Virus record (IMG/VR): IMGVR_UViG_3300008219_000098
Location: 1-24,022 of that record
Reading direction: 5' to 3' (one strand)
Source of the DNA: a virus
DNA: 24,022 nt
Within the stretch, counting starts at the first letter, position 1; each line of letters begins with the position of its first letter. Below, one piece after another: positions 2 to 18,876 of this stretch. The notes under the pieces were generated by a model, which saw nothing but the letters and a program-made list of their open reading frames with translations, searched no databases and had not been told where the DNA came from. The translations under genes were made by a program, and so were the position numbers.

Positions 2-553
2 CTTGACAGACAAAAAATCGAAGAAGCAACCCGCCTCCTCCTCGAAGGACTCGGTCAGGACCCTGAAGATGTCAACTTCCGGAATACACCTCGAAGGGTT
101 TACCGGTTGTGGAAAGAACTGCTTAGCCCTAAGAGGGTTACCTACACCACGTTCCCTGACACGTACGGGAGCTTGGTCGTCCTTCGGGGCCACAGGGTAC
201 ACGGAGTCTGCCCGCATCATCTCTTACCGGTTGAGATGTTCGTGTATGTCGGTTACATTCCGGATAAGGAAGTTCTCGGCCTCTCGAAGCTTGCAAGAGT
301 CGCTGAGGAACAACTTACCTCTCCTATCACCCAGGAGGCCCTTACTGAACGAATCGCTGCTAGACTAGAAAGCGTGCTCGAGCCAAAGGGAGTTGCCGTG
401 ATCATCTCAGGTCGGCACGGCTGCATGAGACATCGCGGAGTCAAGACAGATGCGGATATCGTCACGTCAGCTATGTCCGGAGTGTTCATGACCAATCCAC
501 CAGCGCGAGAAGAGTTCATGCGTATCACAGGTGTACCAAAAGGAGTCTCATGA
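2..553 (+). CDS. folE: GTP cyclohydrolase I, 5'-truncated by the window edge
   Basis: This enzyme converts GTP to 7,8-dihydroneopterin triphosphate, the first step of both folate and 7-deazaguanine (preQ0) synthesis. The frame is open to base 2, and the visible N-terminus (IEEATRLLLEGLGQDPEDV, then TPRRV) already matches the family, so the true start lies just left of the window; the first in-frame ATG at 107 would cut into the fold. The zinc and active-site residues are present: Cys (209-211) and two His (215-220) in CPHHLLP, the GLSKLAR motif, the Gln of TQEALTERIA, and His (416-418) plus Cys (422-424) in RHGCMRHRGV. It overlaps the polymerase by ATGA, so the two are probably translationally coupled. 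In phages this gene usually feeds DNA-base modification rather than folate; the dpdA-like gene two positions downstream supports that reading (inference). Confidence 0.95.
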   Translation, partial: LDRQKIEEATRLLLEGLGQDPEDVNFRNTPRRVYRLWKELLSPKRVTYTTFPDTYGSLVVLRGHRVHGVCPHHLLPVEMFVYVGYIPDKEVLGLSKLARVAEEQLTSPITQEALTERIAARLESVLEPKGVAVIISGRHGCMRHRGVKTDADIVTSAMSGVFMTNPPAREEFMRITGVPKGVS

Positions 554-2955
554 GCTTTGAGAAGGACGACTACTGTAAAGGATGTCCTCTATACGATGAG
601 CCTGGTCCGGTCCCCGCTCGGGGACCGACTAACGCTAAGATCCTGTACGTGGGTGAAGCTCCTGGAGGGACAGAGGTAGATGAGCCCAACTACCGTCCTG
701 ACCGAATGGCGCCCTTCATCGGAGGAGCGGGACGAACGAGAAACGCTATTCTCGGACACGCTGGCATAGACCACAAGGAGCTCCGAACCTGCAACGTGGT
801 CAAATGTAGGCCTCCGCGAAACCGCACACCCAATGAAGACGAGATACGTTGGTGCGCCAAGTTCCTAATCAAGGAGATCAGAGATGTCAACCCGAACCTT
901 ATCATCGCAGCAGGGGGAACTCCGCTTAAAGCACTTACAGGCCTCGAAGGAATCGCTACGTGGAGAGGCGTCCCCGTTGAAGGATTCGAAAAACGGAAAG
1001 TCTTCCCAACCTGGCACCCAGCCTTCCTCATGCGGCAGCAGTACCAGTGGCCCTTCGCGGTCCACGACATGGTACGAGCGAAAGCTGAAAGCGAGTCCCC
1101 GGAGCTCCGTCGCGTTCCGATCGACATTATCACTAATGCAAGCGCTACGCATACTGCGGATACTGTGTACGACAGTGCACGACGAACAGGCTCCTTCTGC
1201 TTTGACTTCGAGACGACCGGACTCAACCCGCGTGACAGTGCGATTAAAATGGTCGGAATTGGGACAGAACCAACACAGGCTTACGTGTACGATTGGACCT
1301 CTCGTAGCCAGCTACTCTTTCGTAGATTGGCTGAGGACCCTAAAATCGAAATCGTGGGTCAAAACGTGGAGTCGTTCGACATTCCCTTCGCGGAAGAAAA
1401 AGGCTTCTCGTTCGCGGGGCCAGTCTTTGACACAATGGTCGCGTTCCACCTCTGCAACGCAAGCTACGGACACAAGCCCATCAAAGCAGCGCGCAGGCAG
1501 TTCGGGGCGGAAAAGGACCTCTCGTTCATAGCTAGCCTTCATACGGACATGGTCTACTGGAAGTCGCGGGATCATTACAAGAACGATCTCCAGACCGTCT
1601 GCGGCAAGGATGTCATTGCTACGGCTCGTGCAGCTGCAGACCTGAAGAAGGAGCTCAAGTCTTACGGCATGACACGTCTGTACTACGAACACGTTATGCC
1701 CGTTCAGCCCGTGCTCCGAGAGATGCACCGTAATGGCATTAAGCGAGACGAGCTTACCTCAGTCAAGTGGTCCATGGGACTCAGGAAGAAGGCTGACCAA
1801 CTAGAAGAGCAGCTGAAGAGAGCACTCGGCAAGCCAGACCTGAACCTGGCTTCTCCACAACAGCTTTGCACGCTGCTATACGACGAGATGGGCCTACCTG
1901 CACAGACACGAGAGCGTAAAGGTAAGGCGCCGTCCAGATCAGCAGATGCGGAGGCGTTAGAGCATCTCGCGGACAAGTATGACAATCCCATCCTACGGCA
2001 GATTGTCGACATCAGGCATCTGAGGAAGATGGACAGCACCTTCATCAATGTCCCAACTGACGATGCTGGCTTTGTGCATCCGTCATTCGGAACGTCGAAG
2101 ACTGCCAATGGCCGCCTGAACAGCTGGAACCCTAACGGCCAGAACATCCCTTGGATGATGAGGGAGATCTACGTCTCTCGCTTTGGCAAGGAGGGAGTTC
2201 TGTACGCCTCGGACTGGTCTCAAATCGAGTGGCGCCTTGCAATGATCCTGTCAGGCGATCCCGTAGGCCTGGACCTCATGGGCTCGGGCATTGATCAACA
2301 TAAAGGTGTCTACTCTGAAGCATTCGGTAAGCGGATTGAAGACGTGACACCTGACGAGCGGCACGAGGCGAAGTTCATTGTCTACGGCTTAGGGTATGGC
2401 AGAGGCGCTCAGTCTATCTCTGAGGCACATAACATACCGTTCGATAAGGTCCAGGCTTTCGTGAAGAGATTCTTCGAACGGTTCCGCGTGTATAACATCT
2501 GGCGGGATGGGCAAGAGGACTTCGTGAAGCGGGAGCACTACCTTGTGAATCCGTTCATGCGTCGGCGCTGGTGGTACACTAGGCAGATTACGGAGATGTA
2601 TAATTTCCTGCCTGCGTCTACAGCTGCAGATATGATGTATGTAGCACTACGCCAGATCTCGGACGGACTGCCCAAAGACGCAAAACTGATCCTGTCTGTG
2701 CATGATGAGATTGTTGTTGATACGCCGAAAGACTGTGCCGCAGAGGCGTTTAATGTCATAAACGGCGTCATGGAACAAACGTGGCCCAGTATCACGGCTG
2801 CGAGCTCGAATCCCAAGGAGGTGAGAAAGCACTATCCCGATGGCTGGCATTGCCCAGCAGAAGGGTACTTCGGGAATAACTGGAAAGACTGCAAAGGGAA
2901 GACCGATGCAGCTATCGAACGGGACGCTGCGATAAGGAAGGAGCTAGGACTGTGA
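550..2955 (+). CDS. Family A DNA polymerase with N-terminal family 4 uracil-DNA glycosylase domain
   Basis: Replicative polymerase of 801 residues with three domains. Residues 1 to about 180 form a family 4 (Fe-S) uracil-DNA glycosylase: Cys9, Cys12, Cys86 and Cys102 have the spacing of the cluster ligands, GEAPGG (35-40) is the first motif and WHPAF (His156) the second. About 212-370 is a DEDD 3'-5' exonuclease: Asp219 and Glu221 in FDFETTG, Asn272 and Asp277, Asp354. About 380-790 is the Pol I-type polymerase: motif A Asp555 with Glu560 and Arg562, motif B Arg604, Lys608, Tyr612 and Tyr616, motif C His718-Asp719-Glu720. Oddities: position 612, equivalent to E. coli Phe762, is Tyr as in T7 polymerase, and the usual exonuclease III-motif Tyr is Val350. 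The start follows AAAGGAG. UDG-polymerase fusions are known from SPO1-type phages; whether this UDG is active is unknown. Confidence 0.97.
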   Translation: MSFEKDDYCKGCPLYDEPGPVPARGPTNAKILYVGEAPGGTEVDEPNYRPDRMAPFIGGAGRTRNAILGHAGIDHKELRTCNVVKCRPPRNRTPNEDEIRWCAKFLIKEIRDVNPNLIIAAGGTPLKALTGLEGIATWRGVPVEGFEKRKVFPTWHPAFLMRQQYQWPFAVHDMVRAKAESESPELRRVPIDIITNASATHTADTVYDSARRTGSFCFDFETTGLNPRDSAIKMVGIGTEPTQAYVYDWTSRSQLLFRRLAEDPKIEIVGQNVESFDIPFAEEKGFSFAGPVFDTMVAFHLCNASYGHKPIKAARRQFGAEKDLSFIASLHTDMVYWKSRDHYKNDLQTVCGKDVIATARAAADLKKELKSYGMTRLYYEHVMPVQPVLREMHRNGIKRDELTSVKWSMGLRKKADQLEEQLKRALGKPDLNLASPQQLCTLLYDEMGLPAQTRERKGKAPSRSADAEALEHLADKYDNPILRQIVDIRHLRKMDSTFINVPTDDAGFVHPSFGTSKTANGRLNSWNPNGQNIPWMMREIYVSRFGKEGVLYASDWSQIEWRLAMILSGDPVGLDLMGSGIDQHKGVYSEAFGKRIEDVTPDERHEAKFIVYGLGYGRGAQSISEAHNIPFDKVQAFVKRFFERFRVYNIWRDGQEDFVKREHYLVNPFMRRRWWYTRQITEMYNFLPASTAADMMYVALRQISDGLPKDAKLILSVHDEIVVDTPKDCAAEAFNVINGVMEQTWPSITAASSNPKEVRKHYPDGWHCPAEGYFGNNWKDCKGKTDAAIERDAAIRKELGL

Positions 2956-3716
2956 TTGAACTCGCTATGGAGATTCCTCGGTTGCTACTCGACGACCTCT
3001 CACCGCTGTGTGACTTTGACTTCTGTCTGGCCCAGGAGGTGATCAATGACGAAGAGTATGCAAAGTACTACCATCAAGCACCGAACAATACGGTCTGGGA
3101 CGGAGAGACTCCTGGACAGCGTGAAGTGTTCATGGATAATGGGTTTCATGAACTGGGCAGACCTCTAAGCTCTCACGAACTACTGGACGCGTCGAAGAAG
3201 ATCAACCCCACGTACGTGGTCGCACCGGACATGATTGATGACTTGCCATGGACGTTCAAGCATTATGAGATCTGCCAGAAGGTGTTCAAGGATTCCAAGA
3301 CCACCGTCATTCCCGTTCTCACAGCTGCGCCGGAGCTAGACCAGAAGAGTTTCATCATGAACACGCAGGACGCTCCTATCCTGTGTCTTCCGTTCAGGCG
3401 GCCAAGGCTTTCCTGGTTGCGCTTTCATGCTGATACGATCGCGAAGTACTTCGATCGTATTCACCTACTGGGCGTAAGCGAGCTCGAGGAGCTCGTGGCC
3501 ATGGCTCAGCTGTGTCAGGAGATACCTTTGCAGGTCTCCGTGGACACGGGAAAGCCGGTCAAGTGGGGGCTGATGGGGAACAGGTTCAACGAACTGACAA
3601 GTCTGCGGCATGCACCGATACACAGTTCTAAGATGGCAACCATAGAGAGCATTACGGACATGCAGCGCAGCAACATCTACTGGAACATTGCGTACCTCCG
3701 ACGGTCGTTGGTATGA
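2952..3716 (+). CDS. dpdA: Phage-type DpdA / tRNA-guanine transglycosylase-like enzyme
   Basis: Predicted base-exchange enzyme that would swap guanine in DNA for a 7-deazaguanine. I recognise it by pattern: MDNGFHELG with Asp62 as candidate catalytic residue, VVAPDMIDD (89-97) as in the phage DpdA and TGT barrel, IHLLGV (170-175) matching the TGT LLG strand, and VSVDTG with Asp198 at the position of the TGT nucleophile. At 254 residues it is shorter than bacterial TGT (about 375), and I see no Cys3-His zinc site, which fits the minimal phage forms. The start is GTG at 2952, overlapping the polymerase TGA; AAGGAG lies 8 bases before it, which favours it over ATG at 2967. With folE two genes upstream this suggests 7-deazaguanine DNA modification (inference). 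A different TIM-barrel transglycosylase remains possible. Confidence 0.72.
   Translation: MIELAMEIPRLLLDDLSPLCDFDFCLAQEVINDEEYAKYYHQAPNNTVWDGETPGQREVFMDNGFHELGRPLSSHELLDASKKINPTYVVAPDMIDDLPWTFKHYEICQKVFKDSKTTVIPVLTAAPELDQKSFIMNTQDAPILCLPFRRPRLSWLRFHADTIAKYFDRIHLLGVSELEELVAMAQLCQEIPLQVSVDTGKPVKWGLMGNRFNELTSLRHAPIHSSKMATIESITDMQRSNIYWNIAYLRRSLV
3433..3460. repeat. Inverted repeat, 9-bp arms, inside the dpdA-like gene
   Basis: ATACGATCG (3433-3441) and its exact reverse complement (3452-3460) flank a ten-base loop that can itself pair in part. A second inverted repeat (7-bp arms, 3479-3485 and 3489-3495) follows 18 bases later. A 9-bp arm pair with a short loop is expected about once by chance in a window of this size, so the role is uncertain. 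Confidence 0.5.
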
Positions 3717-5995: not shown

Positions 5996-8389
5996 CTAGT
6001 CCTTGAAGTCGGGTATCCATCCCGGCATGTCGGATTCATCTTGTGGCTGGAAGCCGGAGAATCTCTTCGCTGCCGTCTTCCAGTCACCTGCTAGAGCGTG
6101 CTCGGCAGCCTCCTTCGTATTCATGAGGGCCCTCACAGGAACACCAGGAGTGAGTTGCTGCCATGCCTGATTCAACTGACTTGCTGCAAGAGCGTCAGAT
6201 GCTTGTGGTTGCCTTCCCTGTACCCGTGCCAGACCTGAGTCAATAGCTCCCTTGGTTCCTTGCAGAATCTGCACCATTGGTCCACCGGAATACTCTAACG
6301 GGGAGAAGAATGTCCAGTCAGAGAAGTTGGACCCGAAGATACTTGCTCCTGCGGTTCCTACAGCTCCGTTGATAGCGAGGAAGCGGCCAATGGCTTTTGT
6401 CCGACGCCCTTTCGAACCATACTTGACTAGCCTCTTCAAGTAATGTGCGTACCACGTGGGCCAGGTACCGTACTGTCCAAGAAATCTTCCCACTGTACCA
6501 TTCAACACTCTGCTAGCATTGCCCCGAGTGTAGATAAAGTGAGACTGGTTGGAGTGAAAGATTCCTATCTGCTGAGCAACCGCAACGTCAGTACGACCTG
6601 TAGCTCTTCCTTTCATCTGTCCTGAGCGCTGAGCTTCTAGCTGATCCATCCACCGCATCTCTGCCGGTGAATTCTCTGGCACCATCAGATCGATGCTAGA
6701 GTTCTCTCTCCAAGCCTTTCGAGCTGCAGCATCTCCATTGGACTTCAGGTACTTCTTGTTCGCGCGCATCGCATTGTCATAGGCAGCCATGAAAGAGGTC
6801 ATTCTGACATACGTCTCAGACTTGTGAAATCCCAACCAGCCCAGATTCCTGTACCCTTCCCACATCTTCTGTACTCCAGGCATTCCCGACATGCCAAGAG
6901 ACTGAGTTGCCTTTTCCATGTCCCTAACCTGCTGGGGTACCCCAGTCCTAGCAGCAACGTCCAGCTTAAACGTAGCCTCGCCTCGTGTCAGCCCCTTATA
7001 CATTCCTCCAAACTCATCTCCCACAATCGCGCTGGGACGAGAAGCCCATTTCACGCCCGCGGCCATAGCCCTCTCGCCTACGATAGGATACGACGTGAAG
7101 TATGCTTGAAAGGAGTTACGTACCACTATCCCAACATTGAAGCCCATGTTAGCCCAGTAGTTTACTCCTAGAAGGCTTTGCGTCATGCCGTAGAACGCGT
7201 CATCCGTTTTCGCACCCTTATACAATCCTCCTGAGGCTTTAACCATGAACGCATCTACATTCGCCATCATCCTGGCAAGGTTGATCTGAGTCTCGTCTGG
7301 AATATGACGGGCTACACGTGCGTACCTCTGAAAGGCTTCTGCGATGTCTCCGGGCATGCCCAAGCCGCCCTTATCTGCTGGCTTGCGTGCCAGGTCGAAC
7401 TGTTTCTTGACGCTATTCCAGGTGGGAGCCAGGTACCTATGCTCTCCCAGCTTGCGCATGATAGTGGACGTAATTCTCCACGCATCATATTCGAACTCTC
7501 CCAGCTGGAGGGTCCCCATCTTTATATCAGGATCCAAGTCCGAAGCGATCCTATCCGCGTTCAAGGGAACATGCTGATCCACAGGCAAGAGATTATCTCG
7601 CCGCATTCCAGGCATTCCCTCAACAAGAGAGGGAAATCTCTGAGCTGGTTGAGCTTCACCACCGGGACCCTCAGCAGCACGAGCAGCGCCTGTCTCATGT
7701 GTGGACAAGTCTCCCCTCTTCCTAATGAGAGGCATATTATCTAGGAATTTCTGCATCTGTTCCGGCGTATATCCCAAGCTCTGAGCGTAGCGCATCCACA
7801 AGTCTTCTAGGAGCTCAGCAGCACGAGTAATGTCTGGACCCAGAGCCGTCTTGAGCTGTTGCAACTCTTTAAGAGAGATCTTACCTCCCCGCTGCAACCC
7901 TTCAGCTTCCAACACACGTTGAACGTTCATTCGCTCACCAAGGTTACTGTAGAACTTACTCTCCGTGCCTTGTTGACGCCTGAGATTCTGAAATATCGTC
8001 TTCGCTTCGTCTATGTAGGGATCTACTTGCGTGCGTACATTACTCCGAGCCGCCTCAATGTTACTCCACCAATCCCAAATCTTCCACCTGGGATTCGCAG
8101 TCTGAATCTCGAGGAACATTGGGCCGCCAGGCAGCAAGTTTATCTGCCACGACGGCGTCTGTTTTCCCGTCTCTGCATTGTAAGACCTCTCACGGTTCAA
8201 CGAAGCATGACCGCTCGCTATTTCCGAAGCGGCTGCAGGGTTAGAAAAAACATCCTCTGCAGCACCCTGACCATTGACCATCCTGGACCCTGCACCGCCC
8301 CTGAATCTCATGCTTTCAGGAACCTGGACAACATCTTCCAAGTTTCTCATATCCGGATCGTCTGGCGGTGCGCAATCATCTGGTGGCAT
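5996..8389 (-). CDS. Large putative internal virion (ejection) protein, 797 residues
   Basis: I recognise no catalytic domain. It begins with a Pro/Asp-rich segment, continues with long helical, charged stretches (100-230), and has a C-terminal part rich in aromatic and small residues: NYWANMGFNVGIVVRNSFQA (about 420-440) and RFLGQYGTWPTWYAHYLKRL (about 640-660), followed by Gly-rich, weakly hydrophobic stretches. Such C-termini are common in very large phage and polyvalent proteins. It directly follows the 1,856-residue gene (9 bases apart) and precedes the amidase. By gene order it matches the T7 gp15/gp16 region, so a role in the DNA-ejection channel or as a protein delivered with the genome is likely (inference). 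ATG is supported by AAGGAG five bases upstream, which overlaps the previous stop codon. It contains a single cysteine. Confidence 0.8.
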   Translation of the reverse strand: MPPDDCAPPDDPDMRNLEDVVQVPESMRFRGGAGSRMVNGQGAAEDVFSNPAAASEIASGHASLNRERSYNAETGKQTPSWQINLLPGGPMFLEIQTANPRWKIWDWWSNIEAARSNVRTQVDPYIDEAKTIFQNLRRQQGTESKFYSNLGERMNVQRVLEAEGLQRGGKISLKELQQLKTALGPDITRAAELLEDLWMRYAQSLGYTPEQMQKFLDNMPLIRKRGDLSTHETGAARAAEGPGGEAQPAQRFPSLVEGMPGMRRDNLLPVDQHVPLNADRIASDLDPDIKMGTLQLGEFEYDAWRITSTIMRKLGEHRYLAPTWNSVKKQFDLARKPADKGGLGMPGDIAEAFQRYARVARHIPDETQINLARMMANVDAFMVKASGGLYKGAKTDDAFYGMTQSLLGVNYWANMGFNVGIVVRNSFQAYFTSYPIVGERAMAAGVKWASRPSAIVGDEFGGMYKGLTRGEATFKLDVAARTGVPQQVRDMEKATQSLGMSGMPGVQKMWEGYRNLGWLGFHKSETYVRMTSFMAAYDNAMRANKKYLKSNGDAAARKAWRENSSIDLMVPENSPAEMRWMDQLEAQRSGQMKGRATGRTDVAVAQQIGIFHSNQSHFIYTRGNASRVLNGTVGRFLGQYGTWPTWYAHYLKRLVKYGSKGRRTKAIGRFLAINGAVGTAGASIFGSNFSDWTFFSPLEYSGGPMVQILQGTKGAIDSGLARVQGRQPQASDALAASQLNQAWQQLTPGVPVRALMNTKEAAEHALAGDWKTAAKRFSGFQPQDESDMPGWIPDFKD

Positions 8390-8398
8390 AGGTGCTCC

Positions 8399-11300
8399 TT
8401 ATCTTCTACAGACATTCCAGTTCCACGCGTCCTTTTCTTCGAGCGAGTACTGACGACGCGGGCCAGCTCCGTCATCTATGATCTTCGCAGCAGAGAAGTT
8501 CTCGGTCAACCCTTTCTGCCTTTGGAACGTATACATCACCGCAGACATGGGATCATCAGAGAAGAAGTCAAGGCCTTGAGGAAGACGGTCAAGCTCCACG
8601 ATAACTTGATCTACTGACATGCCATGAGGGTGCGTAGGGCTGGCATCGGGGTTTATTCCTATCCTAACTAGGAGATTGCGGTGTTGGGCAATGTGAGAGG
8701 CAGCTGCGGGCTTATTGATAATCGCAACCCTGTTCGATGGCATCGCAGGAGAGACTCCAGCCTTTCTGGGTAACTCGACATAGTGGAACTGGTCATTCGG
8801 CAAGACCATACTGCCGTCAGGACCTATTTCGTACTTGCCTGAGCGTGCCTTATCCAGAACATTCTGACCCGAGTCCACATCGAAGACTGCGCGGAACTGG
8901 TCTAAGTTACCCTCGGCGTAACGCAGCTCTGCAACCATCCTCTTGCCGTCCTTAACCATCATGCCCAGTTGCACTTGTAGCTCTGTCGGTACCCAAGCCT
9001 TACTATCTATCTCGGGATCGACATGTCTCGCCCGACCCATGTTAAGTGCTCTCTCCAGGCCGTCTTCAATGTTCAGGGCTGGGAGTTCTACCTGAATGGT
9101 CTTAAGATACTCCGCTGCCTCTAGTGTCTCCGAGAACTTCAGTGGCTCTCTTCCTGGCGCGTAGACCCACGCTCCTGTTCCGTGGAACTCTATGCCTACG
9201 CCCGCGTCCTTAGCCAGGTCCATTAGCTGGGCAGGACCCGCTTGAGGCATCTGCGCTTCCGCAAGCTCCTTGAGAGTCATGTCAGGTGAAACGTCAGGAT
9301 GGTAGTTATTCCCCTTCGCGGAGTGGACCACGCTGACCTTCGTCTCTGGGTCAAGGCCGAACTTGATCAGCTTCTGTGCGCCTCGGACTGCATGAACCAC
9401 GCGTGTAGGAGCCTCAGTGCCCCAGAGATGCGGATTCTGGAAGAAGTCCTTGTTCATCTGATATGGTCCGCCCTCTGCTTCAGACAGGACCGTGTAGACG
9501 CCTACGCCCTCTACGTCAGGATCGAGTATCTGAACACCCTCAGGAACGTCCTGTCTAAGACGGCGTGCTCCAGACAGAGCATCTTCAATTTCCATGTCGC
9601 CCATGAGCACTGCTTGACGGTCTGCCGGAGACAGGCTGCCCAAGTCTCCACCATAATCAAGGTACTCTTTCCTGACGTCAACGGCCGCCTGAGCAGCGTC
9701 CATATCGGCTACAGGATTCCCGAACTCATCGAACAGGGGTTTATCTTCATAACGATAGAGCATAGGATCGTACATGTCCTGTAGCCGTCCTCCATAGAGA
9801 TCCTCACCGACTTCATGACGTGCGCGAAACTGCCCTTCATAGCCTAATGGAGTAGCCGGCTGAGTTTCGATGTCAATCGGTCGACCTGCTGCATCGTAGC
9901 CATGAATCTGTCCTGGCCGTGTGGGATCGAGATGTTGCCGTCCGCCTCTCATGAACTCAGGCGACGCAGCATGTTCTGTAGATCTGGGCCCACGCTCCGG
10001 CTGTACGGGAAAGCCATACTGCTCTGAAGTAACGTCTCCCAGTGCCATACGCTCTCTGCTCGCTAAGCCCTCTCTTGCTTCCCGCATTCCCTGGACAGAG
10101 TCTCTTGGGAATCCCTCTGTAGCATTTCCGGGTCTATTTGGCAACACGGATCGTGTGTTGTGCACCGTAAGCTGGACATTGCCGTACGCATCAACGTGGA
10201 AGAACGTGCCTACGTCTTCAGCTCCAAACACCTCACGGGAAGCTTGCAGTCTGTCGAGCCAAGGCCACATCATCCCATCTCCTGGGATGATAACGTAGCC
10301 AGTTTGTTCAGGTTCCGGTAGGATCTTTCCTGTGTTAGGATCGAAGCCCGGTCCCCTGTTTGCGCGATGCAAGATAAGACCCGTCCGGGGCTCCGACGTA
10401 CTCATAGCAGATATCCGTACGAACCTCGGGACCGCCTTCGTTCCTCGAGGCTGGACTTCGAGTGTCGGTCTGAGAAGTTGGATCTGCCCACGCGGTACAG
10501 CCTCTGGACCGTGACCGAAATCAACTAACATCTCTCCTGGAGCTGCCTGTACCTGTGACCCTCTAGCATGATCTGCCTGAATGGAACGCTGAAGGCCCTC
10601 GGCTCGCTGAATACGATTCTGCAGGAACTGCGCTCGAGAATCTATCTGCGAAATCCTCTGCATGTTAGCACGAGCCTTATCAGGAGACATTTGGCTTCGT
10701 CCCTCAAGGACAAGGCCCGTTCTCATCCTCTGAATGACCTGAAGTTCCATGCTCGCGCGTTCTATGCCAACCTGTACCTCTCCCTCAGCGTATCTAATGT
10801 TTAACTCTGCTAGTACGTCATATTCCTTCTGGAGTTCCAGGCTGAACGGAACCTTCTCGCCAGGCTGAAGCTCCTCGAACCGCGTTGCACCACCCTGGAT
10901 GAGCGCTGGATCATACCTGTCCTCTACGCGCGTGGCAAGCAGGTCATCGATCTTTTGTTGCTGTGCTCGTATCTGCGATTGCATCGTTCTCAACTCGGCG
11001 GGCTGTGGATCTGCAGTCTGACGAGTAAGCTTCGTCTGAATGGCGTAGGGAGACAAAGCCTCTCCTTCTCCAGAGAACGATGTCTGTCTAAGCTCGACAG
11101 CTACCTGACGCATCTCCGCAGCGAACTTTGAGCGTCCCGTACCATATCTAGGATCAGCTGCAGGAGCTCCCCCACCACCTGCAGGCGAGTAGACATCGGA
11201 CGTGGCACCACTATAGCCTGGAGGCGTAACCACATTCCGTTCTACTTGACCCGTGAACAAACCGACCTGAGAAACCTCTTCTCCCTGGAATTGTGGCCCA

Positions 11301-13969
11301 GCCTGCTGCGCAGCTATCTGTTCCTCTACCCCGGCAAGCTCAGCCTCTAGATCGGCCCGTTCCTTACCATACAGCGTTGCGCGACCCGTTCTGCTCTTAT
11401 AGAGATCGGCTCCTGCACCAACCTCAGCGGGAAGATCCTCGAGCTTCGCTCTTATCGCGGCACGTTGCGCTTCCAGTGCGCTTGGTACGCCTTTGGGTTC
11501 TTCCCCCAAACCCCGTCCTCTTGCTTTGGCGATAGCGTCGGCTTCCTCGGAGATTACCTGTGCGCGAGATCGCGCAATAGGACTGGGATCGAAATCAGGC
11601 GCTACCTCTCCAGCTCGTACCTTGCCCTCAAGTCTTGCCAGGTAGGGAAACATCCTCTTCTGCGATACTGTAATTTCTCCACCCCGTAGCACGCGGTCCG
11701 TGAGAGCGGTGATATACTGCAAGAGCTTCTCGTCTGCGGTGAGCTGCTTGCCATTCTGGACGATGTTGATCCCTTTCAGAGCCTTCCAGAAACTCTCTTT
11801 GGACCCTCTAATAGCAGGAGCCCAACTCAGCTCCAGAAGCTTTGCGGCGTTCGCCGTCGTCGGCCGATCACTGACGTTGAGACCGTTCTTTATCCTACGA
11901 ACAGTTCTGTTGCCGAACGCTCTGGCCTTCTGAACCACCTCCGCAGTTCGCTTTGCATCACCACCCTCGCGGACAGCAGCATACGTTGAATCGAACCGTG
12001 CCTGCTGGGCCGCAAGCACGTGTTTGTCCAACTCTGACAAGCTCGAAACGTCGCGCGCGTTGAGGGTCAGGATTCCGCGTCCCTGAACATTAGCACGGAA
12101 GCGGCCTAGCCACCACGGAACACCCTCCTTTGACCAGACGGAGATGCCTAGTTCAGGATCCAGAGAGTAGTCAGCCTTCGAACCTGTTCCACTAACAACT
12201 GATCCGAAACGCGTTTCACACGGGGATCCGCAAGCACTCTGGCGCACGAACTCGCCGTTATCAAAGTCACTAGCGTCCCATCTCAGATCGGAGGGAGCGG
12301 CCTGCTCCGCGTCAGTCCAACCCCGCCTTTCCAGAAGTGCGAGCCTGTCAGGGTCGAACAGATTGTTCCATACATCAAGGATCTCATCTTGACTAACGCC
12401 ACGCACCTGCCCGATCCTAAACTGAGATGCGTCCTCCCCATAGTGCATCGCATCTTGATAGTGTGCATCGCCGGCCATTTGGCGTATCTGTTCGAAAATG
12501 TCCTCGCGTATCTCTGCAGTTACTGTCGTACCATCTTCCAGGGTCGCACCCAGTTTCGGTATAGTAGGCACTTCCAGTATCCGACCGTCGGTGGTAATGA
12601 AGTCAACGTCTACCGCCGTAGTGGGCGTTGACAGCTCGTTGGCATTCAGGATCACCGCAGGCTCCCTTTTATCCAGAGTCAGATTTCGATGAGCTGCCAA
12701 AGCCATGAAAACCTGATTCTCTTGGGGGGTCTGTGGCATCACAGGAGAGGCTTCATTCCCTGCGGGTCGAGTGTTAGCTATGGTATCTGCAAGATCCGCA
12801 GCTTCGTCAGGCGACATCCTAGAGGGATCGACCCGTGAGGTTGCAAACCAAGCTTCAGCTTCCTCTTTGGGGAGGCCATGCTTCTTTGCCCAGTTTCTGA
12901 CCTGTGCGCGACTCCAGGTCAGGCCGATTTCGTTCTTCAGAGCCACCTTCATGAATGGCAGAACGAAGGCGGGCTCCAACACACCTCCTATGGCCATGTT
13001 GACTGCCATGTGCGTTGCCCAACTCTGGCCATCTTCCAGATATGCGCCAGCCGAGAACATTGCATCGGTTGTTACGCCTGCTCCGGCGGACCGTGCGAAC
13101 TGCGACCCCCAGCCCGCCCACTTTGTCGTGGCCATACGTACGCTGAACGGGGCGTTTGCAGCCACAGCGAAAGGAATTGCCGATGCCATAATGCCCGCAA
13201 ACTCAGCCGGTGCAGCAAGAGCCAGAGCCGCCTGAGACTGGATATCTTCATACGTACCCGTGTCAGATGTGCGCCCTGCCCGTTCTCTGTCAGCTTGCCA
13301 GTTCGCGGTAATCAACCTATTATTCCTCTCCTGTATCGCATTCCACGTACTCACCCTTCGTGGCGCCAAGCGACCGAGAGAATAGGTAAGACCCTTTCTC
13401 CAGGAGATTCCGACGTTCTGTTTCAGAGCCTCGACTATTCTCTCATCATCAGGAGCAGCAGCAATGTACGCCTCAGAGAACTTCGATATCTGCTCCTTCA
13501 TCATGAGGTTGATATCATACTCTCCTGTAGGAGAGGTAAGCCTCACGAGTGCCCGACCGTATGCATCGGCTCCTTCTGGACTGTCCTCAACGTGCACTTG
13601 CCTCCCTACAAACTGCTGAAGGAAGGATTTCATCTGAGCCCCCCCGGGCTCACTCATCTCCTGAGCGTTAAGGCCCTCGGGAAGGAACAGTCTGGCACGA
13701 CCGTATCCGCCGTCCAACATAACGGTATCACCGTCTAGCACCTCCGTGATGCGTCTTGCGCGGGGAGAGGTGGACAGAGACCATTCCGGAATAGGCTTCG
13801 GAAGCTCAGGCTCGGGTTCTTTATCCTCGGGATTCAGAGATGCTCTGAGTTGCTCCAATCTGGCCAACAAAGCTGTGCTCGATGTTGCCTCAGCTCCAGC
13901 CATGGTCGGACTCTGAATGCGTGCGAGCATTTCTGCATACGACTTAAGGGCCTGCGCTAATCCTGGCAC
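8399..13969 (-). CDS. Giant virion/ejection protein with N-terminal SNase-like domain, 1,856 residues
   Basis: The largest gene of the window. Residues about 70-165 read as a staphylococcal-nuclease (SNase) fold: VLDGDTVML (Asp79, Asp81), RARLF (Arg93), LNAQE (Glu104; the usual calcium-ligand Asp is Asn101), DAYGRALV (Arg139) and YDINLMMKEQ. Hydrophobic runs at about 246-275 and 320-343 could touch a membrane. The rest is long, helical and charged, with Gln/Glu/Arg coiled-coil-like stretches (about 800-1,100) and a Gly/Pro-rich linker; I see no RNA polymerase, lytic transglycosylase or protease motif. The start is GTG at 13967-13969, with GGAG nine bases before it, 12 bases after the preceding stop. 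Position and size suggest the T7 gp16 role, an ejected protein spanning the envelope; the function is inferred. Confidence 0.85.
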   Translation of the reverse strand: MPGLAQALKSYAEMLARIQSPTMAGAEATSSTALLARLEQLRASLNPEDKEPEPELPKPIPEWSLSTSPRARRITEVLDGDTVMLDGGYGRARLFLPEGLNAQEMSEPGGAQMKSFLQQFVGRQVHVEDSPEGADAYGRALVRLTSPTGEYDINLMMKEQISKFSEAYIAAAPDDERIVEALKQNVGISWRKGLTYSLGRLAPRRVSTWNAIQERNNRLITANWQADRERAGRTSDTGTYEDIQSQAALALAAPAEFAGIMASAIPFAVAANAPFSVRMATTKWAGWGSQFARSAGAGVTTDAMFSAGAYLEDGQSWATHMAVNMAIGGVLEPAFVLPFMKVALKNEIGLTWSRAQVRNWAKKHGLPKEEAEAWFATSRVDPSRMSPDEAADLADTIANTRPAGNEASPVMPQTPQENQVFMALAAHRNLTLDKREPAVILNANELSTPTTAVDVDFITTDGRILEVPTIPKLGATLEDGTTVTAEIREDIFEQIRQMAGDAHYQDAMHYGEDASQFRIGQVRGVSQDEILDVWNNLFDPDRLALLERRGWTDAEQAAPSDLRWDASDFDNGEFVRQSACGSPCETRFGSVVSGTGSKADYSLDPELGISVWSKEGVPWWLGRFRANVQGRGILTLNARDVSSLSELDKHVLAAQQARFDSTYAAVREGGDAKRTAEVVQKARAFGNRTVRRIKNGLNVSDRPTTANAAKLLELSWAPAIRGSKESFWKALKGINIVQNGKQLTADEKLLQYITALTDRVLRGGEITVSQKRMFPYLARLEGKVRAGEVAPDFDPSPIARSRAQVISEEADAIAKARGRGLGEEPKGVPSALEAQRAAIRAKLEDLPAEVGAGADLYKSRTGRATLYGKERADLEAELAGVEEQIAAQQAGPQFQGEEVSQVGLFTGQVERNVVTPPGYSGATSDVYSPAGGGGAPAADPRYGTGRSKFAAEMRQVAVELRQTSFSGEGEALSPYAIQTKLTRQTADPQPAELRTMQSQIRAQQQKIDDLLATRVEDRYDPALIQGGATRFEELQPGEKVPFSLELQKEYDVLAELNIRYAEGEVQVGIERASMELQVIQRMRTGLVLEGRSQMSPDKARANMQRISQIDSRAQFLQNRIQRAEGLQRSIQADHARGSQVQAAPGEMLVDFGHGPEAVPRGQIQLLRPTLEVQPRGTKAVPRFVRISAMSTSEPRTGLILHRANRGPGFDPNTGKILPEPEQTGYVIIPGDGMMWPWLDRLQASREVFGAEDVGTFFHVDAYGNVQLTVHNTRSVLPNRPGNATEGFPRDSVQGMREAREGLASRERMALGDVTSEQYGFPVQPERGPRSTEHAASPEFMRGGRQHLDPTRPGQIHGYDAAGRPIDIETQPATPLGYEGQFRARHEVGEDLYGGRLQDMYDPMLYRYEDKPLFDEFGNPVADMDAAQAAVDVRKEYLDYGGDLGSLSPADRQAVLMGDMEIEDALSGARRLRQDVPEGVQILDPDVEGVGVYTVLSEAEGGPYQMNKDFFQNPHLWGTEAPTRVVHAVRGAQKLIKFGLDPETKVSVVHSAKGNNYHPDVSPDMTLKELAEAQMPQAGPAQLMDLAKDAGVGIEFHGTGAWVYAPGREPLKFSETLEAAEYLKTIQVELPALNIEDGLERALNMGRARHVDPEIDSKAWVPTELQVQLGMMVKDGKRMVAELRYAEGNLDQFRAVFDVDSGQNVLDKARSGKYEIGPDGSMVLPNDQFHYVELPRKAGVSPAMPSNRVAIINKPAAASHIAQHRNLLVRIGINPDASPTHPHGMSVDQVIVELDRLPQGLDFFSDDPMSAVMYTFQRQKGLTENFSAAKIIDDGAGPRRQYSLEEKDAWNWNVCRR
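13475..13762 (-). other. SNase (thermonuclease)-like domain inside the giant virion protein
   Basis: Covers residues about 70-165. The order of motifs, Asp-Gly-Asp-Thr, Arg-Leu, the xx-Glu turn, Tyr-Gly-Arg and then Asn-Leu-Met, follows the SNase fold. The residues equivalent to Asp21, Arg35, Glu43 and Arg87 of the staphylococcal enzyme are present as Asp81, Arg93, Glu104 and Arg139. The Asp40 equivalent is Asn101, and there is a small insertion of about three residues before it. Activity is plausible but weakened metal binding is possible. Confidence 0.72.
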
Positions 13970-13981
13970 TAGTAAGTACTC

Positions 13982-16468
13982 CTATCTCCCTGTTGTCGGC
14001 GGTCCTGGAGGCATTCGGACAGAGCCAGACATCCCGGCTCCAAAACTTTGTGGAATGGCATTCCGTCCTACCTCGCCCAGGATACTGAGTAGCGTGTCGA
14101 GCATTTCGGGTTCGGGGTACAAGGCGTACGATCCGTCTTCTCCCGGCCCGATCCGCCTACCTGTTTTTCGAGCTAGTATCATAGGCAATACGAGAAACGG
14201 CAACTCCCCTTTTCCTATCTGGAGGGTGAGACTAGTGAGCTCGTTTATCAGATCCTTCTGCGCCTGATTGGTACCCACATTACTGGCAATAGTCTCAAGT
14301 GTCCCCACAAACTCACCCAGGAACTCATCTGTACTGGCCGGATTGCCTTTGGCTAATTCTGCCTGGGAATCAAGTAACAGCCTGTTCAGTGTACCCTCGA
14401 TGCCTTCCAGGGATATAGGATTGGCTCGACCTGCCAGCGTTGGCAGTAACGGCGTCAAGTATCCATCCGGAATCTCTCCAGTCCATTCACCATTTGCGGT
14501 CGTCGGGAGATTCAACCCCTGTAACACTCCAGGAGTTAGAATACCTGCCCCCTCTGCAGCTTTCAGGAATTGCTTGGAGGCGTCAACGTCGAGAGTTTTC
14601 CAATCATCATCTGGCGTCCACATGGAGCTCCGGAATCTATCCAGCGCGGCAGGTGTCACGCCTCCTGCATCTATCGACTGGCGAAAGCTCTCATACTGAG
14701 ATGCATACTCAGGACCCAGCTGGAGAGTATCCAGCGGACCTCCAGCACTCTCATAAGCGTCAAGAGGGATCTTTTCTCCTGGAGACAGCAACATGTTCAC
14801 GCCCCTCTGTTGGCCATAAATGAAATTCGTCAGGACGCCCAGAATGAAATTCTTACTCTCTATCTCCGGCATGGCTCCACCCTGCGGGTACATCATGTCG
14901 ATACGTTTCTTGTAGTCTTCCATATACATCATCAGTGTAGGCAGCACAGTCTCCTGACACGCCGTTCTCTCCACCGAACCAGATTCCAGAGACGCGCACT
15001 GTGACATAACATCGCCCAGGTCCGTTATTACTGCCAGGACCTTCCGGTCTTGGCCCGCGTCGCGCTCCGCCGTGAGCTGTGCTGCTGTCAGAGACAAACT
15101 GTTTATTTGCTGACGCTTTTTCTGTGTCTCTTCGCGATTGGCTAACCAAGTCGCCAACCAATTGCCGTCTTTCCACTCCTCCTCACTGATAGGGAGGTCG
15201 CCCTTGTCGTACGCCTGCTGTGTCCAAGCTCCAATCGCTGCAGTGCTAGCACCAGCCCCACTTGCAACAGCCTGTGAGTACACGTAAGCTTGTAGCGAGG
15301 TACAAGCTTCACAGAACGCCCCTTCTTCCTGGCCCAAGTTGGCAATCACCTGAAGCTGCTTAATTGCCTCCAGCGTGTGATTTTGCCGAGCACGGGTCTC
15401 TGTAGCAGCTGCAGTTTGAAAATCCTGGTAGAATCTACTCAGGGGCTGAGGATTCGGCAGGCCGTTCTGTTTCATAGCCAGATAGTGAGGATCGCTTGCC
15501 ATACAGACCTGATCATCTACAACGTTTCCTCCTTCGTCCCGTGGGACGTTACCTATCATCAGACCCGCCACGTAATTTCCTACACAGTTGGCCGTTTGCA
15601 GCGTATATTGATCATTTATCAGCCCTTGCGTGATCTCCTGGCGTTTCAGCATGGCCTGTTCAAACGTCTGTTGGGGACTCCAGTCAAACTGGTTGATCAG
15701 ATTGGTTATTACTTCCTGGTTGCCCCACTGCTTACCTTCCTCGAGAGTTCCACCATCAACGACCTGTCCCGTCCTCATTGCAAGCAGCCGGGCAAAGTCT
15801 TCTAGCTTGTCAGGATACAATCGCATCCACGCCGAGAGCGCCGCACCCGTAGATTCTGGCGAGGAGGCAGGATTCCGTATCCAAGTATCGATAAGGGTTT
15901 GAGACTCGGCATTGAGCCTGTCTTCGTTAAACCCAAACATCTCCCGCCCGGCCTGAGCCTGTTGGTTGGCTTGAGTAGCCTGCCTTGAGGCTATGCTAGC
16001 CCGAAGATTGTCAAGCTGCAGCTGCTCCTCAGGCAGGTTGGCTCTCGGTGGGAACAAGGGCCAATCAGGTGGTTGTCCCTGCGGATCCACTAGTCCTGTA
16101 GCGGTCTCAGTAGGTGGAGGAGCATATCCCGCCATGCCCGCAGGCATCATATCCTTAGCCATCTTGAAGTGGTCAGGCGGCAAATTTGGATCGAACGCGG
16201 TATTCGTAAAGTCTACAGGGACGCCCTGCCTACTCAACATCCTCATATAGCCTTCGTCTTGCTGCAAGGCGGCTTGTATCTCAGGAGGCAGCTGCATGAG
16301 ATCAGTATACAGCTTCGTCGCATTCGCCTCGCGCCTGTTTTTCTCGTAGCCCTGCTGTTGAAGCTGCCCCAGAAGACGAGGCAGTATCATCGCAAGCAGC
16401 TGTGCCCAGTTATCGCCACCACCAGCATCGTAGTAGATTGCATCAGGCGTTTCACGTGTTATTGCCAT
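13982..16468 (-). CDS. Putative internal virion protein, 828 residues (T7 gp15-like position)
   Basis: Predominantly helical and Gln/Ala/Leu-rich, with an amphipathic N-terminal helix (WAQLLAMILPRLLGQLQQQG, 21-40) and a Pro-rich segment near 110-130. I recognise no enzyme motif. It has six cysteines, including a CxxC pair (FCEACTSL) and widely spaced partners, a paired pattern recalling the cysteine-rich neighbour upstream. The C-terminus is short, Gly- and Pro-rich. It begins immediately after the stop of the 629-residue gene with no spacer; GGAGG lies ten bases before the ATG. Position and length match T7 gp15 (747 residues), the middle protein of the ejection channel, so a structural role in genome delivery is likely. 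There is no homology I can demonstrate by eye. Confidence 0.8.
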   Translation of the reverse strand: MAITRETPDAIYYDAGGGDNWAQLLAMILPRLLGQLQQQGYEKNRREANATKLYTDLMQLPPEIQAALQQDEGYMRMLSRQGVPVDFTNTAFDPNLPPDHFKMAKDMMPAGMAGYAPPPTETATGLVDPQGQPPDWPLFPPRANLPEEQLQLDNLRASIASRQATQANQQAQAGREMFGFNEDRLNAESQTLIDTWIRNPASSPESTGAALSAWMRLYPDKLEDFARLLAMRTGQVVDGGTLEEGKQWGNQEVITNLINQFDWSPQQTFEQAMLKRQEITQGLINDQYTLQTANCVGNYVAGLMIGNVPRDEGGNVVDDQVCMASDPHYLAMKQNGLPNPQPLSRFYQDFQTAAATETRARQNHTLEAIKQLQVIANLGQEEGAFCEACTSLQAYVYSQAVASGAGASTAAIGAWTQQAYDKGDLPISEEEWKDGNWLATWLANREETQKKRQQINSLSLTAAQLTAERDAGQDRKVLAVITDLGDVMSQCASLESGSVERTACQETVLPTLMMYMEDYKKRIDMMYPQGGAMPEIESKNFILGVLTNFIYGQQRGVNMLLSPGEKIPLDAYESAGGPLDTLQLGPEYASQYESFRQSIDAGGVTPAALDRFRSSMWTPDDDWKTLDVDASKQFLKAAEGAGILTPGVLQGLNLPTTANGEWTGEIPDGYLTPLLPTLAGRANPISLEGIEGTLNRLLLDSQAELAKGNPASTDEFLGEFVGTLETIASNVGTNQAQKDLINELTSLTLQIGKGELPFLVLPMILARKTGRRIGPGEDGSYALYPEPEMLDTLLSILGEVGRNAIPQSFGAGMSGSVRMPPGPPTTGR

Positions 16469-18358
16469 CTACGAAGTTCCTCCAAAGTATCCGCCAGCAC
16501 CGAAGCCGCCCAGCATGCTCATCCCACCCATAGCCAACGCGCTTAGGATGCTTCCCAGACCGCCACCCGACCTCTCTGGAATTACTGGCTTCGCATTAGG
16601 CCTCGGTGGGAAGCCGGTAGCGTAACTTAGCGCGGCACTCAGGTACGGACTAGGCTGCTGCATCCTCATCCAATCGTTGTATTGCCTTGCCATGTTCGCA
16701 TCAGCGAGCTGTTTCCTGATATCCCCGACTCCGCCAGTTGCGGTAGCCAATGCTTGATCCATTCCGTACCCGGCCTGTGCGAGGCCTCCTAAGCCCTGAG
16801 CACCCTGAGCACGTAGCGCTGCTTGTTGGATAGCTGCATTAGTGGTCATCCCTGCGATTGACGAACCTGTCTGCATGGCACTGATCAGAGACCCGATCTC
16901 GCTGATGTCTAGACCGCCAAGTGTACTTGATGCTCCGAGACGTGTCTGAGAACGCTGGAATGCTGCCTGAGCTTGCAAGGCTTGCTGCTGCTGAACCATC
17001 TGTGCAATGCCACGCGACGTACCTCTACCCAGTGACTCGGAAACGTCGGAACCAGACGAGAGACCCATGCCTCCAAAGCGCTCTCGCTCTGAAGCCTGGA
17101 AGTCTTCGATGTCCTGCATCCCACGTGCCCGAATCGCATCCATCACGCCTGTGAGATCTTGCTGGCCTCCCGTGTTCGCGAGGAACTGAAGATTCTGACG
17201 GGCCGTAGGATCTTGCGGTCCTGCAAGCGCACGAGTCAGTGGATCCTGAAACTGTGCAAGTCTACCTAGAAGAGGATTGACCAGGTCCGTTCCGAGCATC
17301 CCCTGATACGCACCGCGTGCTCCAGCAGTTGCTTCGCCGAAGCGCCCACTAGCTCCCCGGAGCAGATCAAGGACCTGAGCGTACTCAGGTGGAATGCCTT
17401 GCTGGAGACTTCCAGGGTACTTTGGCTGGTCGTACTGAACTCTCCCGGAAAGCAGCTTGCCAAGGATGTATCGTAGGGGAATAAGATCTTGCGGGATAGT
17501 GTTTTCCTGCCCAGCAGTATTGACGGTCACGTTGCTGGAGCCGCCACCACCGCCAGTACCTCCAGCTCCTCCAGCTCCTCCACTACCTCCTGCCCCACCC
17601 CCACCGGAAGTAGAAATCTGCGTACATGTCCAATAGTACTCTGGAGGGTCAGAACCGGCTACCTGTATACATTCCTTGACATAGCCCGGACCCTTTTCCT
17701 TCTCACAGTCTATCTGATTGCCTTCTTCAGGATTGCACCCTTCAGTTGACTTGGTTGAGGTACAAGACGGAATGCCATCCGGGCCTATGATGTATTCTCC
17801 CCCGTTCCTACATTTGCAGCAATCGCATTCTGGATCGTAGTAGGCCTGACCCTCAGGATCATGACCACACTTCGTTTTTGGTTTATCTGTCCCGCAATGA
17901 CAGTATCCCTCCCCATTAGGACAGTTCCAGTCGTAGGGCACCCAGAAACAATCCTGTGTGGCTTCGCAAGCCAGCTTATCGGCTCTCTCACCAATGTCAA
18001 CGCACCCTTCCTCACCCACATTCTCAGACTGCACGTTCTGCCCATTCGTGCCCGAAGGCGTAGCCGTATTGATATTAGCGAAGTCGCCGCTGAACATGCC
18101 TGGATTAGTATACGAGGCAAACGGATCGGAGAAGTTATTATAGTTAGAAAAGTTGGTGCCCGAATCGAATATCGTATTCGGATCAAACGAGGGCACGCCA
18201 TTAGGCTGTCGTCCAGACGTGTTCGTGGTATCGGATGTTTGCCTGTTTCGGGTTCCTGGGCCCGAGCCAGTCTGTGCCGTGTTCTGCGGCATATTTCCAT
18301 ATGCCCAGTCCGGCAGGAGCATGTCTAGACCGAAGAAATCACGGGGAGTACTGGCCAT
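16469..18358 (-). CDS. Cysteine-rich virion protein, putative ejection protein (T7 gp14-like position)
   Basis: 629 residues in three parts. Residues 1-115 are polar, Asn/Thr/Ser/Gly-rich and probably disordered. Residues 119-245 contain 16 cysteines, with clusters such as CHC and CDCCKC. A Gly-rich linker (252-275) leads to a Gln/Ala/Gly-rich helical C-terminal half (290-629) containing SGSDVSESLGRGTSRGIAQM, a type often seen in small internal virion or DNA-transfer proteins of podoviruses, and ending in a Gly-rich, weakly hydrophobic tail. The gene overlaps the GNAT-like gene by 34 bases, and GGAGGAAG precedes its ATG. The C-terminal half fits the T7 gp14 role (ejected, outer-membrane part of the channel) by position; the cysteine domain is unexpected for that role. 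The function is inferred. Confidence 0.78.
   Translation of the reverse strand: MASTPRDFFGLDMLLPDWAYGNMPQNTAQTGSGPGTRNRQTSDTTNTSGRQPNGVPSFDPNTIFDSGTNFSNYNNFSDPFASYTNPGMFSGDFANINTATPSGTNGQNVQSENVGEEGCVDIGERADKLACEATQDCFWVPYDWNCPNGEGYCHCGTDKPKTKCGHDPEGQAYYDPECDCCKCRNGGEYIIGPDGIPSCTSTKSTEGCNPEEGNQIDCEKEKGPGYVKECIQVAGSDPPEYYWTCTQISTSGGGGAGGSGGAGGAGGTGGGGGSSNVTVNTAGQENTIPQDLIPLRYILGKLLSGRVQYDQPKYPGSLQQGIPPEYAQVLDLLRGASGRFGEATAGARGAYQGMLGTDLVNPLLGRLAQFQDPLTRALAGPQDPTARQNLQFLANTGGQQDLTGVMDAIRARGMQDIEDFQASERERFGGMGLSSGSDVSESLGRGTSRGIAQMVQQQQALQAQAAFQRSQTRLGASSTLGGLDISEIGSLISAMQTGSSIAGMTTNAAIQQAALRAQGAQGLGGLAQAGYGMDQALATATGGVGDIRKQLADANMARQYNDWMRMQQPSPYLSAALSYATGFPPRPNAKPVIPERSGGGLGSILSALAMGGMSMLGGFGAGGYFGGTS
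17536..17606 (-). repeat. Gly-rich linker with short tandem DNA repeat
   Basis: Codes residues about 252-275, nearly all Gly with some Ala, Ser and Thr. On the plus strand a nine-base unit (TCCAGCTCC) is repeated in tandem at 17561-17581, so the linker could change length by slippage. It separates the cysteine-rich domain from the helical C-terminal half. Confidence 0.75.
17624..18004 (-). other. 16-cysteine domain of the 629-residue virion protein
   Basis: Codons 119-245. Cysteines fall at residues 119, 131, 137, 146, 153, 155, 164, 178, 180, 181, 183, 199, 208, 218, 230 and 245. The even number and the mixed CxC, CxCC and long spacings look more like disulfide-bonded extracellular repeats than a single zinc finger, but metal binding cannot be excluded. 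Acidic residues, Gly, Pro and aromatic residues dominate between the cysteines. Confidence 0.8.
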
Positions 18359-18876
18359 TTTGCTTCTTCCTCCAGGATGCCCATATATACAGAATCAACA
18401 GAGGGATTCACGCTCCACCCTTTTCGTATTGTGCCTTCTGTAGCCAAGCCCACATCACCGAGCAAGCGTTGCAGTGCCGCATTCGTTCCCGGTACTACCG
18501 CCGAGATCCTTGGGAGCTTGAATGTCTTAAAGGCACTGGCCACGACAGCCCGAACAGCAGCCTTCCTGTCCTTCCTAAGTCGGCCATCCCAGAACAGCAC
18601 GTTCAGGTCAGCATCGCGACCAAGAATGATATTCGTCAAGAAGACAAGACCTACCGGCCCTATCTCTACGAACCAGGCATCCTTGCGCGCGGTAAGATGC
18701 TGTAAGAAGATCAACGTATCTTCCTTCGGGATAGACAGCTCGTTGTAGTTCATGACTAGCTGCTGTACCTTTTCCGGGTCCATCTTATTCAGCTCAACCA
18801 GGTCTTCCGGTTGAACGGTGTAATACTCGTTGTCTTGCACGGTCTCCGTCTCAGTGACCGGTTGTGCGCTAGGCAT
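18325..18876 (-). CDS. GNAT-fold protein, probable T7 gp13-like internal/assembly protein
   Basis: 183 residues. About 65-170 have the GNAT acetyltransferase layout: a strand pair (DAWFVEIGPVGLVFLTN), a helix (AAVRAVVASAFKTF), then RISAVVPGTNAALQRLLGDV with Asn132 and VGLATEGTIRKGW, the usual Asn, alpha-4 and beta-5 end of the fold. The acetyl-CoA loop (normally Q/RxxGxG/A) is not clear; its place holds GRLRKDRKA, so catalysis is doubtful. Small GNAT-like proteins occur between the tail-nozzle and internal protein genes of several T7-like phages, in the gp13 position, and this order is kept here. The first 60 residues are acidic and helical. The ATG overlaps the upstream nozzle gene by 8 bases, with GAGAGGAG nine bases before it. 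Confidence 0.72.
   Translation of the reverse strand: MPSAQPVTETETVQDNEYYTVQPEDLVELNKMDPEKVQQLVMNYNELSIPKEDTLIFLQHLTARKDAWFVEIGPVGLVFLTNIILGRDADLNVLFWDGRLRKDRKAAVRAVVASAFKTFKLPRISAVVPGTNAALQRLLGDVGLATEGTIRKGWSVNPSVDSVYMGILEEEAKWPVLPVISSV

Follow-up and report, generated by a model that had tools for sequence, protein, structure and literature searches.

What would a phage gain from a nuclease fused to a protein that probably enters the cell with its DNA? The question is raised by IMG/VR virus record IMGVR_UViG_3300008219_000098, of which positions 1 to 24,022, the whole 24,022-nucleotide stretch analysed, are called the window here. Its open reading frame 8399-13969 on the minus strand encodes a giant protein of 1856 residues, and an initial annotation had placed a staphylococcal nuclease (SNase)-like domain at its start. 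The explanation favoured here, which we hold to be about evenly balanced between right and wrong, is that the giant is a podovirus virion protein, packaged and ejected with the DNA, whose acquired SNase domain acts at entry and has been altered in the window phage. If the protein is both ejected and active, the phage would deliver a non-specific nuclease before any gene expression. Two questions would then arise: what the nuclease attacks, and how a phage genome survives being packed beside it.

An SNase domain at the N-terminus of the giant

Positions 13475-13762 encode residues 70-165 of the giant (RARRITEVLDGDTVMLDGGYGRARLFLPEGLNAQEMSEPGGAQMKSFLQQFVGRQVHVEDSPEGADAYGRALVRLTSPTGEYDINLMMKEQISKFSEAY), and this segment is confirmed as an SNase domain. 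The PHROG 452 "endonuclease" family matches it with an E value of 2.1e-6 when the domain is taken by itself and of 2.5e-4 in the whole protein. With the Pfam SNase model (PF00565; curated cut-off 21 bits), the corresponding domains of two related giants, L020 and L026, score 50 and 43.6 bits, both above the cut-off, and that of G001 scores 12.7-17.9 bits. G001 is the nearest phage (IMGVR_UViG_3300032006_002038; PolA 83% and primase 86% identical). In its domain the catalytic residues line up with those of a PDB thermonuclease (match at E 1.2e-4), and its giant retains DGDT, R93, E104, and YGR. This conservation, although the two giants are only about 28% identical overall, counts in favour of the explanation given above.

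An AlphaFold2 model of the domain (pLDDT 72.8), built from a shallow four-row alignment of four phage sequences, has the element order b1-b2-b3-a1-b4-b5-a2-a3, which is that of SNase. When the model is compared with the PDB by Foldseek, all 50 of the 50 matches listed are staphylococcal nuclease, with a probability of 1.00, a best E value of 3.3e-4, and TM-scores of 0.37-0.47; these low TM-scores probably reflect the shallow alignment, and the family assignment does not depend on the Foldseek comparison alone. Structure prediction, proposed in the initial annotation as a check, thus returned the SNase fold and not another one, and together with PHROG 452 and the Pfam scores of the relatives it bears out the SNase-like domain claimed there. 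A chance resemblance was considered and rejected, given the PHROG 452 E value, the match of G001 to the PDB, the Pfam scores of L020 and L026, and the Foldseek matches.

The catalytic positions were assigned in an alignment of 168 SNase domains, comprising those of the phage and bacterial loci fetched and those of the window, G001, L020, and L026 (Table 1). Within it, D19, D21 (a calcium ligand), T22, and E43 are invariant, and R35 and R87 are almost invariant. The proposal that D81, R93, E104, and R139 of the window giant match SNase catalytic residues holds in this alignment, and D79 matches as well. In three of the four SNase-carrying phages (G001, L020, and L026) the five catalytic positions are intact, with Asp at D40 and no insertion, and the domains of these three are likely to have kept their activity, judging from their residues.

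An optional module among related giants

The giant itself returned nothing by direct tblastn against 50,697 phage records or in a single-protein scan of viral contigs, and relatives were reached only through PolA and through the 797-residue product of the partner gene that immediately follows the giant gene. A scan with this partner yielded 16 further contigs. Bacterial genomes scanned with the 797-residue profile contained no relative, and so give no clue to a host or a prophage. L002, recovered with a tail-protein query, turned out to come from a phage that is not related and that has a tape-measure-like protein; it was excluded.

A single protein of about 2000 residues is here divided between the 1856- and 797-residue genes. 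G001 has the same arrangement (1965 residues followed immediately by 814), and split pairs also occur in L018 and L021, whereas L020 (2173 residues) and L026 (2037 residues) encode single polypeptides in which a standard N-terminal SNase domain is followed by the same downstream region. The N-terminal SNase domain is thus found in the window and in three related uncultured phages, G001, L020, and L026, and also in L048, a fragment that matches L026 at 100%. Homologous proteins are present without it in L018/L019, L021 (whose N-terminus lies on L042), L022, and L023/L024, and in the more distant L027 (with L044), L030, L031, and L032. The SNase domain is therefore an optional module of the giant, missing from at least four phages of the same clade. 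The PolA and SNase trees are compatible with one or two changes, and with gain as well as loss. The clade offers a natural comparison of intact SNase (G001, L020, L026), altered SNase (the window), and none (L018, L021, L022, L024).

This distribution bears on the idea that the domain works on the DNA of the phage itself, trimming an end or releasing the DNA from a virion protein at entry or packaging. A nuclease packed beside DNA would presumably meet that DNA first. However, relatives that share the giant and the order of the genes have no SNase domain, so no conserved genome-processing step can need it, and SNases have little site specificity. We consider such a role quite improbable.

A small stand-alone SNase-like open reading frame with a signal-peptide-like start is present at L043:1196-1540 on the minus strand (record G010, the same phage as L024). 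It has Asn at D40 (GINAAE) and a profile E value of 1.1e-10, and falls below the Pfam cut-off; the giant of that phage has no SNase domain.

A likely virion protein that probably enters the cell

The 1856- and 797-residue pair closes the virion block and is convergent with the PolA-primase block, with an amidase gene in between. A similar arrangement recurs among primase relatives: MW202554, a Desulfofustis phage, PaP2, Mel-JY34, vir526, and EBPR3 all have an open reading frame of 1400-1900 residues at the same corner, and in PaP2, Mel-JY34, vir526, and EBPR3 this giant is, as in the window, the final large gene of its virion block, in convergent orientation to PolA-primase. By PHROG, the Mel-JY34 giant is DarB-like, and the Desulfofustis giant has a sub-threshold LPD38 match. 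The 797-residue partner aligns with the C-terminal part of the vir526 giant (E 5e-10). In BFVD, its structure model, which is mostly of low confidence (pLDDT 55.5), best matches by fold a protein labelled "large polyvalent protein associated domain" (E 3.9e-4), and the LKA1 internal virion protein is among the matches listed.

Polyvalent proteins of phages generally sit among the late genes (PMC5512222), and the giant is likewise a large protein at a virion-block position, in its split form and in its fused form (2037-2173 residues) alike. In the podovirus JC1, the DarB-like gp69, of 4515 residues and encoded late in the virion block, was represented by 51 unique peptides in CsCl-purified virions (PMC9144972). 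The giant and its partner are probably kin to polyvalent (DarB-type) proteins, and the giant is likely to be a virion or ejection-type protein that accompanies the phage DNA into the bacterium. The initial annotation, which described an ejected protein, is thus upheld as to a likely virion or ejection nature, on position, homology of the partner, and JC1 gp69; injection itself is a further step that we infer.

Alternatively, the giant might be a structural or assembly protein that is not ejected, its SNase domain facing outward or acting late, for example on nucleic acid of the host when the cell lyses. In favour of this, an amidase endolysin is encoded two genes further on. The similarity to DarB and internal virion proteins, and the fact that in many phages such a giant ends the virion block, argue the other way and leave this an improbable account.

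Under the favoured explanation, the giant would probably be packaged in the virion and leave it together with the DNA, in the manner of DarB-type polyvalent proteins and internal virion proteins, with the acquired SNase domain at its N-terminus. In this lineage the domain would most likely be a small nuclease that depends on metal and has low specificity, and its target would be nucleic acid encountered on entry or immediately afterwards, either host DNA or RNA or the DNA of a rival. In the window phage the active site appears to have drifted (N101 and the 3-residue insertion described below), so that activity has probably been reduced or the role shifted to nucleic-acid binding.

Altered active site of the window copy

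Several findings weigh against this explanation, and they concern first of all the window copy of the domain. The replacement of one calcium ligand by N101, noticed in the initial annotation, is real: the residue corresponds to D40 of SNase, which is Asp in 159 of the 168 domains, Asn in 8 (the window and 7 others), and Glu in 1, frequencies that are approximate because one search pattern admitted only Asp or Asn at this position. Since Asn occurs in 8 of 168 domains, it is by itself tolerated in nature. A second feature, beyond those described earlier, is an insertion of three residues between R93 and E104. The span from R35 to E43, counted inclusively, is 9 residues in 167 of the 168 domains and 12 in the window, and both the insertion and N101 lie in the strand/loop that bears the metal ligand and the general base. 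In addition, the window copy sits on a long branch of the SNase tree and has no match to Pfam PF00565, whose curated score it does not reach. The D-to-N change and the unique insertion weaken the case for catalysis by this copy specifically, and we infer from these residues that its nuclease activity is reduced or altered. A more general difficulty is that the SNase of S. aureus requires calcium, which is scarce in the bacterial cytoplasm.

The remaining points concern the giant as a whole. Packaging and ejection are suggested by gene position, by the homology of the partner, and by the likeness to JC1. The partner aligns with the DarB-like giant of Mel-JY34 at an hhalign E value of 2.8e-4 but with a probability of only 41%, and by hhalign it has no match to the Desulfofustis giant, the sub-threshold LPD38 homologue. 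Against Pfam it has no hit, and no curated LPD domain scores above threshold. Membership in LPD38 was thus considered and left unconfirmed.

The changes in the window copy would also suit a domain that only binds DNA. The SNase fold is an OB-type barrel, and here it could tie the ejection protein to the end of the genome, or help to hold the virion DNA; the loss of D40, the widened R35-E43 span, and the missing Pfam match are all in keeping with this. Residues unneeded for pure binding (D21, R35, E43, and R87) are nevertheless all retained, and the catalytic set of the relatives is complete. A purely binding role is, in our estimate, unlikely, with perhaps one chance in several of being correct.

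In a bolder reading, a common thermonuclease has become joined to the N-terminus of a DarB-like protein that is ejected; arriving with the genome, it would serve as a nuclease weapon early in infection, and sister phages would carry working and decayed forms of it. This is possible, but we regard it as doubtful.

7-Deazaguanine as a proposed protecting modification

The initial annotation speculated that a predicted 7-deazaguanine modification protects the phage genome from the SNase. Genes for DpdA-like, FolE, and QueC proteins are indeed spread through the group, whether or not a phage has the SNase domain. Because these genes are equally present in relatives that have no SNase, a specific coupling between the two finds no support; co-occurrence was tested and was uninformative. 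SNase attacks the backbone and depends little on the guanine base. The role published for 7-deazaguanine is resistance to restriction enzymes (PMC6884629).

The putative DpdA gene of the window (2952-3716, plus strand) has a weak match to Pfam DUF6610 and is unnamed by NCBIfam and PADLOC; 13 further phage records in the set contain homologues (weakest E 0.003), and its identity as DpdA is a prediction. In G001 (L001:763-9131), FolE and the DpdA-like gene are accompanied by QueC and by a QueE-like radical-SAM gene. That no QueC or QueE-like gene is seen in the window, which is a fragment, is probably due only to the contig ending there.

Comparison with known systems

The SNase family and giant ejected phage proteins are both already known. 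The domain shares its fold order, DGDT, R35, E43, and YGR (R87) with the SNase/thermonuclease families PF00565, PHROG 452, and NCBIfam NF047694, from which the window copy differs by Asn at D40 and the 3-residue insertion. Members of the family, which are common in phages, usually stand alone at 130-300 residues (median 197 among the loci fetched), whereas here the domain forms the N-terminus of a virion-block protein of about 1900-2200 residues. Among the 160 SNase loci fetched, an N-terminal SNase domain on a protein of more than 1500 residues is found in this group only.

Polyvalent proteins (Iyer et al. 2017, PMC5512222), such as P1 DarB/DdrB and the DarB-like proteins of Bcep22 and JC1, are likewise very large products of late genes that combine a variable enzymatic domain with a conserved helical part. 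The giant differs in having a single recognised enzymatic domain, the SNase (Pfam and PHROG scans), and no curated LPD domain past threshold. It resembles the internal virion or ejection proteins of podoviruses (the C-terminus of the vir526 giant, LKA1) in closing the virion block and in having an alignable helical C-terminal part, but none of the other giants examined carries an SNase domain. A DNase class of the SNase type was unreported among polyvalent proteins in the 2017 survey (PMC5512222), and the open-licence papers searched included none describing an ejected phage protein with an SNase domain, which is weak evidence of absence. The SNase domain would extend the catalogue of domains carried by ejection or polyvalent-type proteins.

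Two database entries come close. BFVD A0A516LXN0, an unannotated viral protein of at least two segments of about 983 residues, resembles the SNase model weakly in segment 1 (E 5.5e-3) and the 797-residue model weakly in segment 2 (E 1.4e-2), and may, as far as these models indicate, have the architecture of the window giant plus partner. PHROG 8809, a phage family of 2317 residues, matches the SNase domains of L020 (E 6.6e-9) and L026 (E 2.5e-10) at its own positions of about 1058-1206, in the middle of the protein and not, as here, at the N-terminus.

Features of the giant and its gene neighbours

The giant gene has a GTG start, with an AGGAG about 9 nucleotides upstream as a plausible ribosome site. 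Directly after the SNase domain comes the most hydrophobic stretch of the protein, a segment that may have a part in membrane insertion or in a channel. The 828-residue protein encoded just upstream has no family match in scans of Pfam/PHROG-type libraries and is, by position, a second internal virion or ejection protein. Further up the virion block are tail genes, among them those for an SU10-type adaptor and a PHROG 3287 virion protein.

Table 1. Coordinates in the window of the giant, its SNase domain, and adjacent products
Feature	Position	Strand	Remark
1856-residue giant, N-terminal SNase domain	8399..13969	(-)	homologues G001 1965, L020 2173, L026 2037 residues
SNase-like domain, residues 70-165	13475..13762	(-)	profile match reaches about residues 67-197
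D79-G80-D81 (within DGDT; SNase D19/D21)	13727..13735	(-)	D19, D21 invariant in 168 domains
R93 (SNase R35)	13691..13693	(-)	alignment
3-residue insertion, about F95-P97, between R35 and D40 equivalents	13679..13687	(-)	window copy only
N101, replacing calcium ligand D40 of SNase	13667..13669	(-)	alignment
E104 (SNase E43, general base)	13658..13660	(-)	invariant
R139 (SNase R87), DAYGR motif	13553..13555	(-)	alignment
Gly/Ala-rich hydrophobic segment, about residues 240-350	12920..13252	(-)	conserved also in homologues without SNase
797-residue protein, mostly helical; equals C-terminal ~600 residues of single-polypeptide relatives	5996..8389	(-)	distant similarity to DarB/polyvalent C-termini
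828-residue protein, same operon, just upstream of giant	13982..16468	(-)	position only

Other products of the window deserve a brief mention. A 629-residue virion-block protein (16469-18358, minus strand), which has no family match, is strikingly rich in cysteine over a stretch of its N-terminal half and also has a Gly-rich linker. Between virion genes lies a 183-residue GNAT acetyltransferase-like protein (18325-18876, minus strand; Pfam E 0.003, PHROG 4470 E 0.0016). Finally, the PolA-type polymerase (550-2955, plus strand) is fused to a family-4-type uracil-DNA glycosylase domain.
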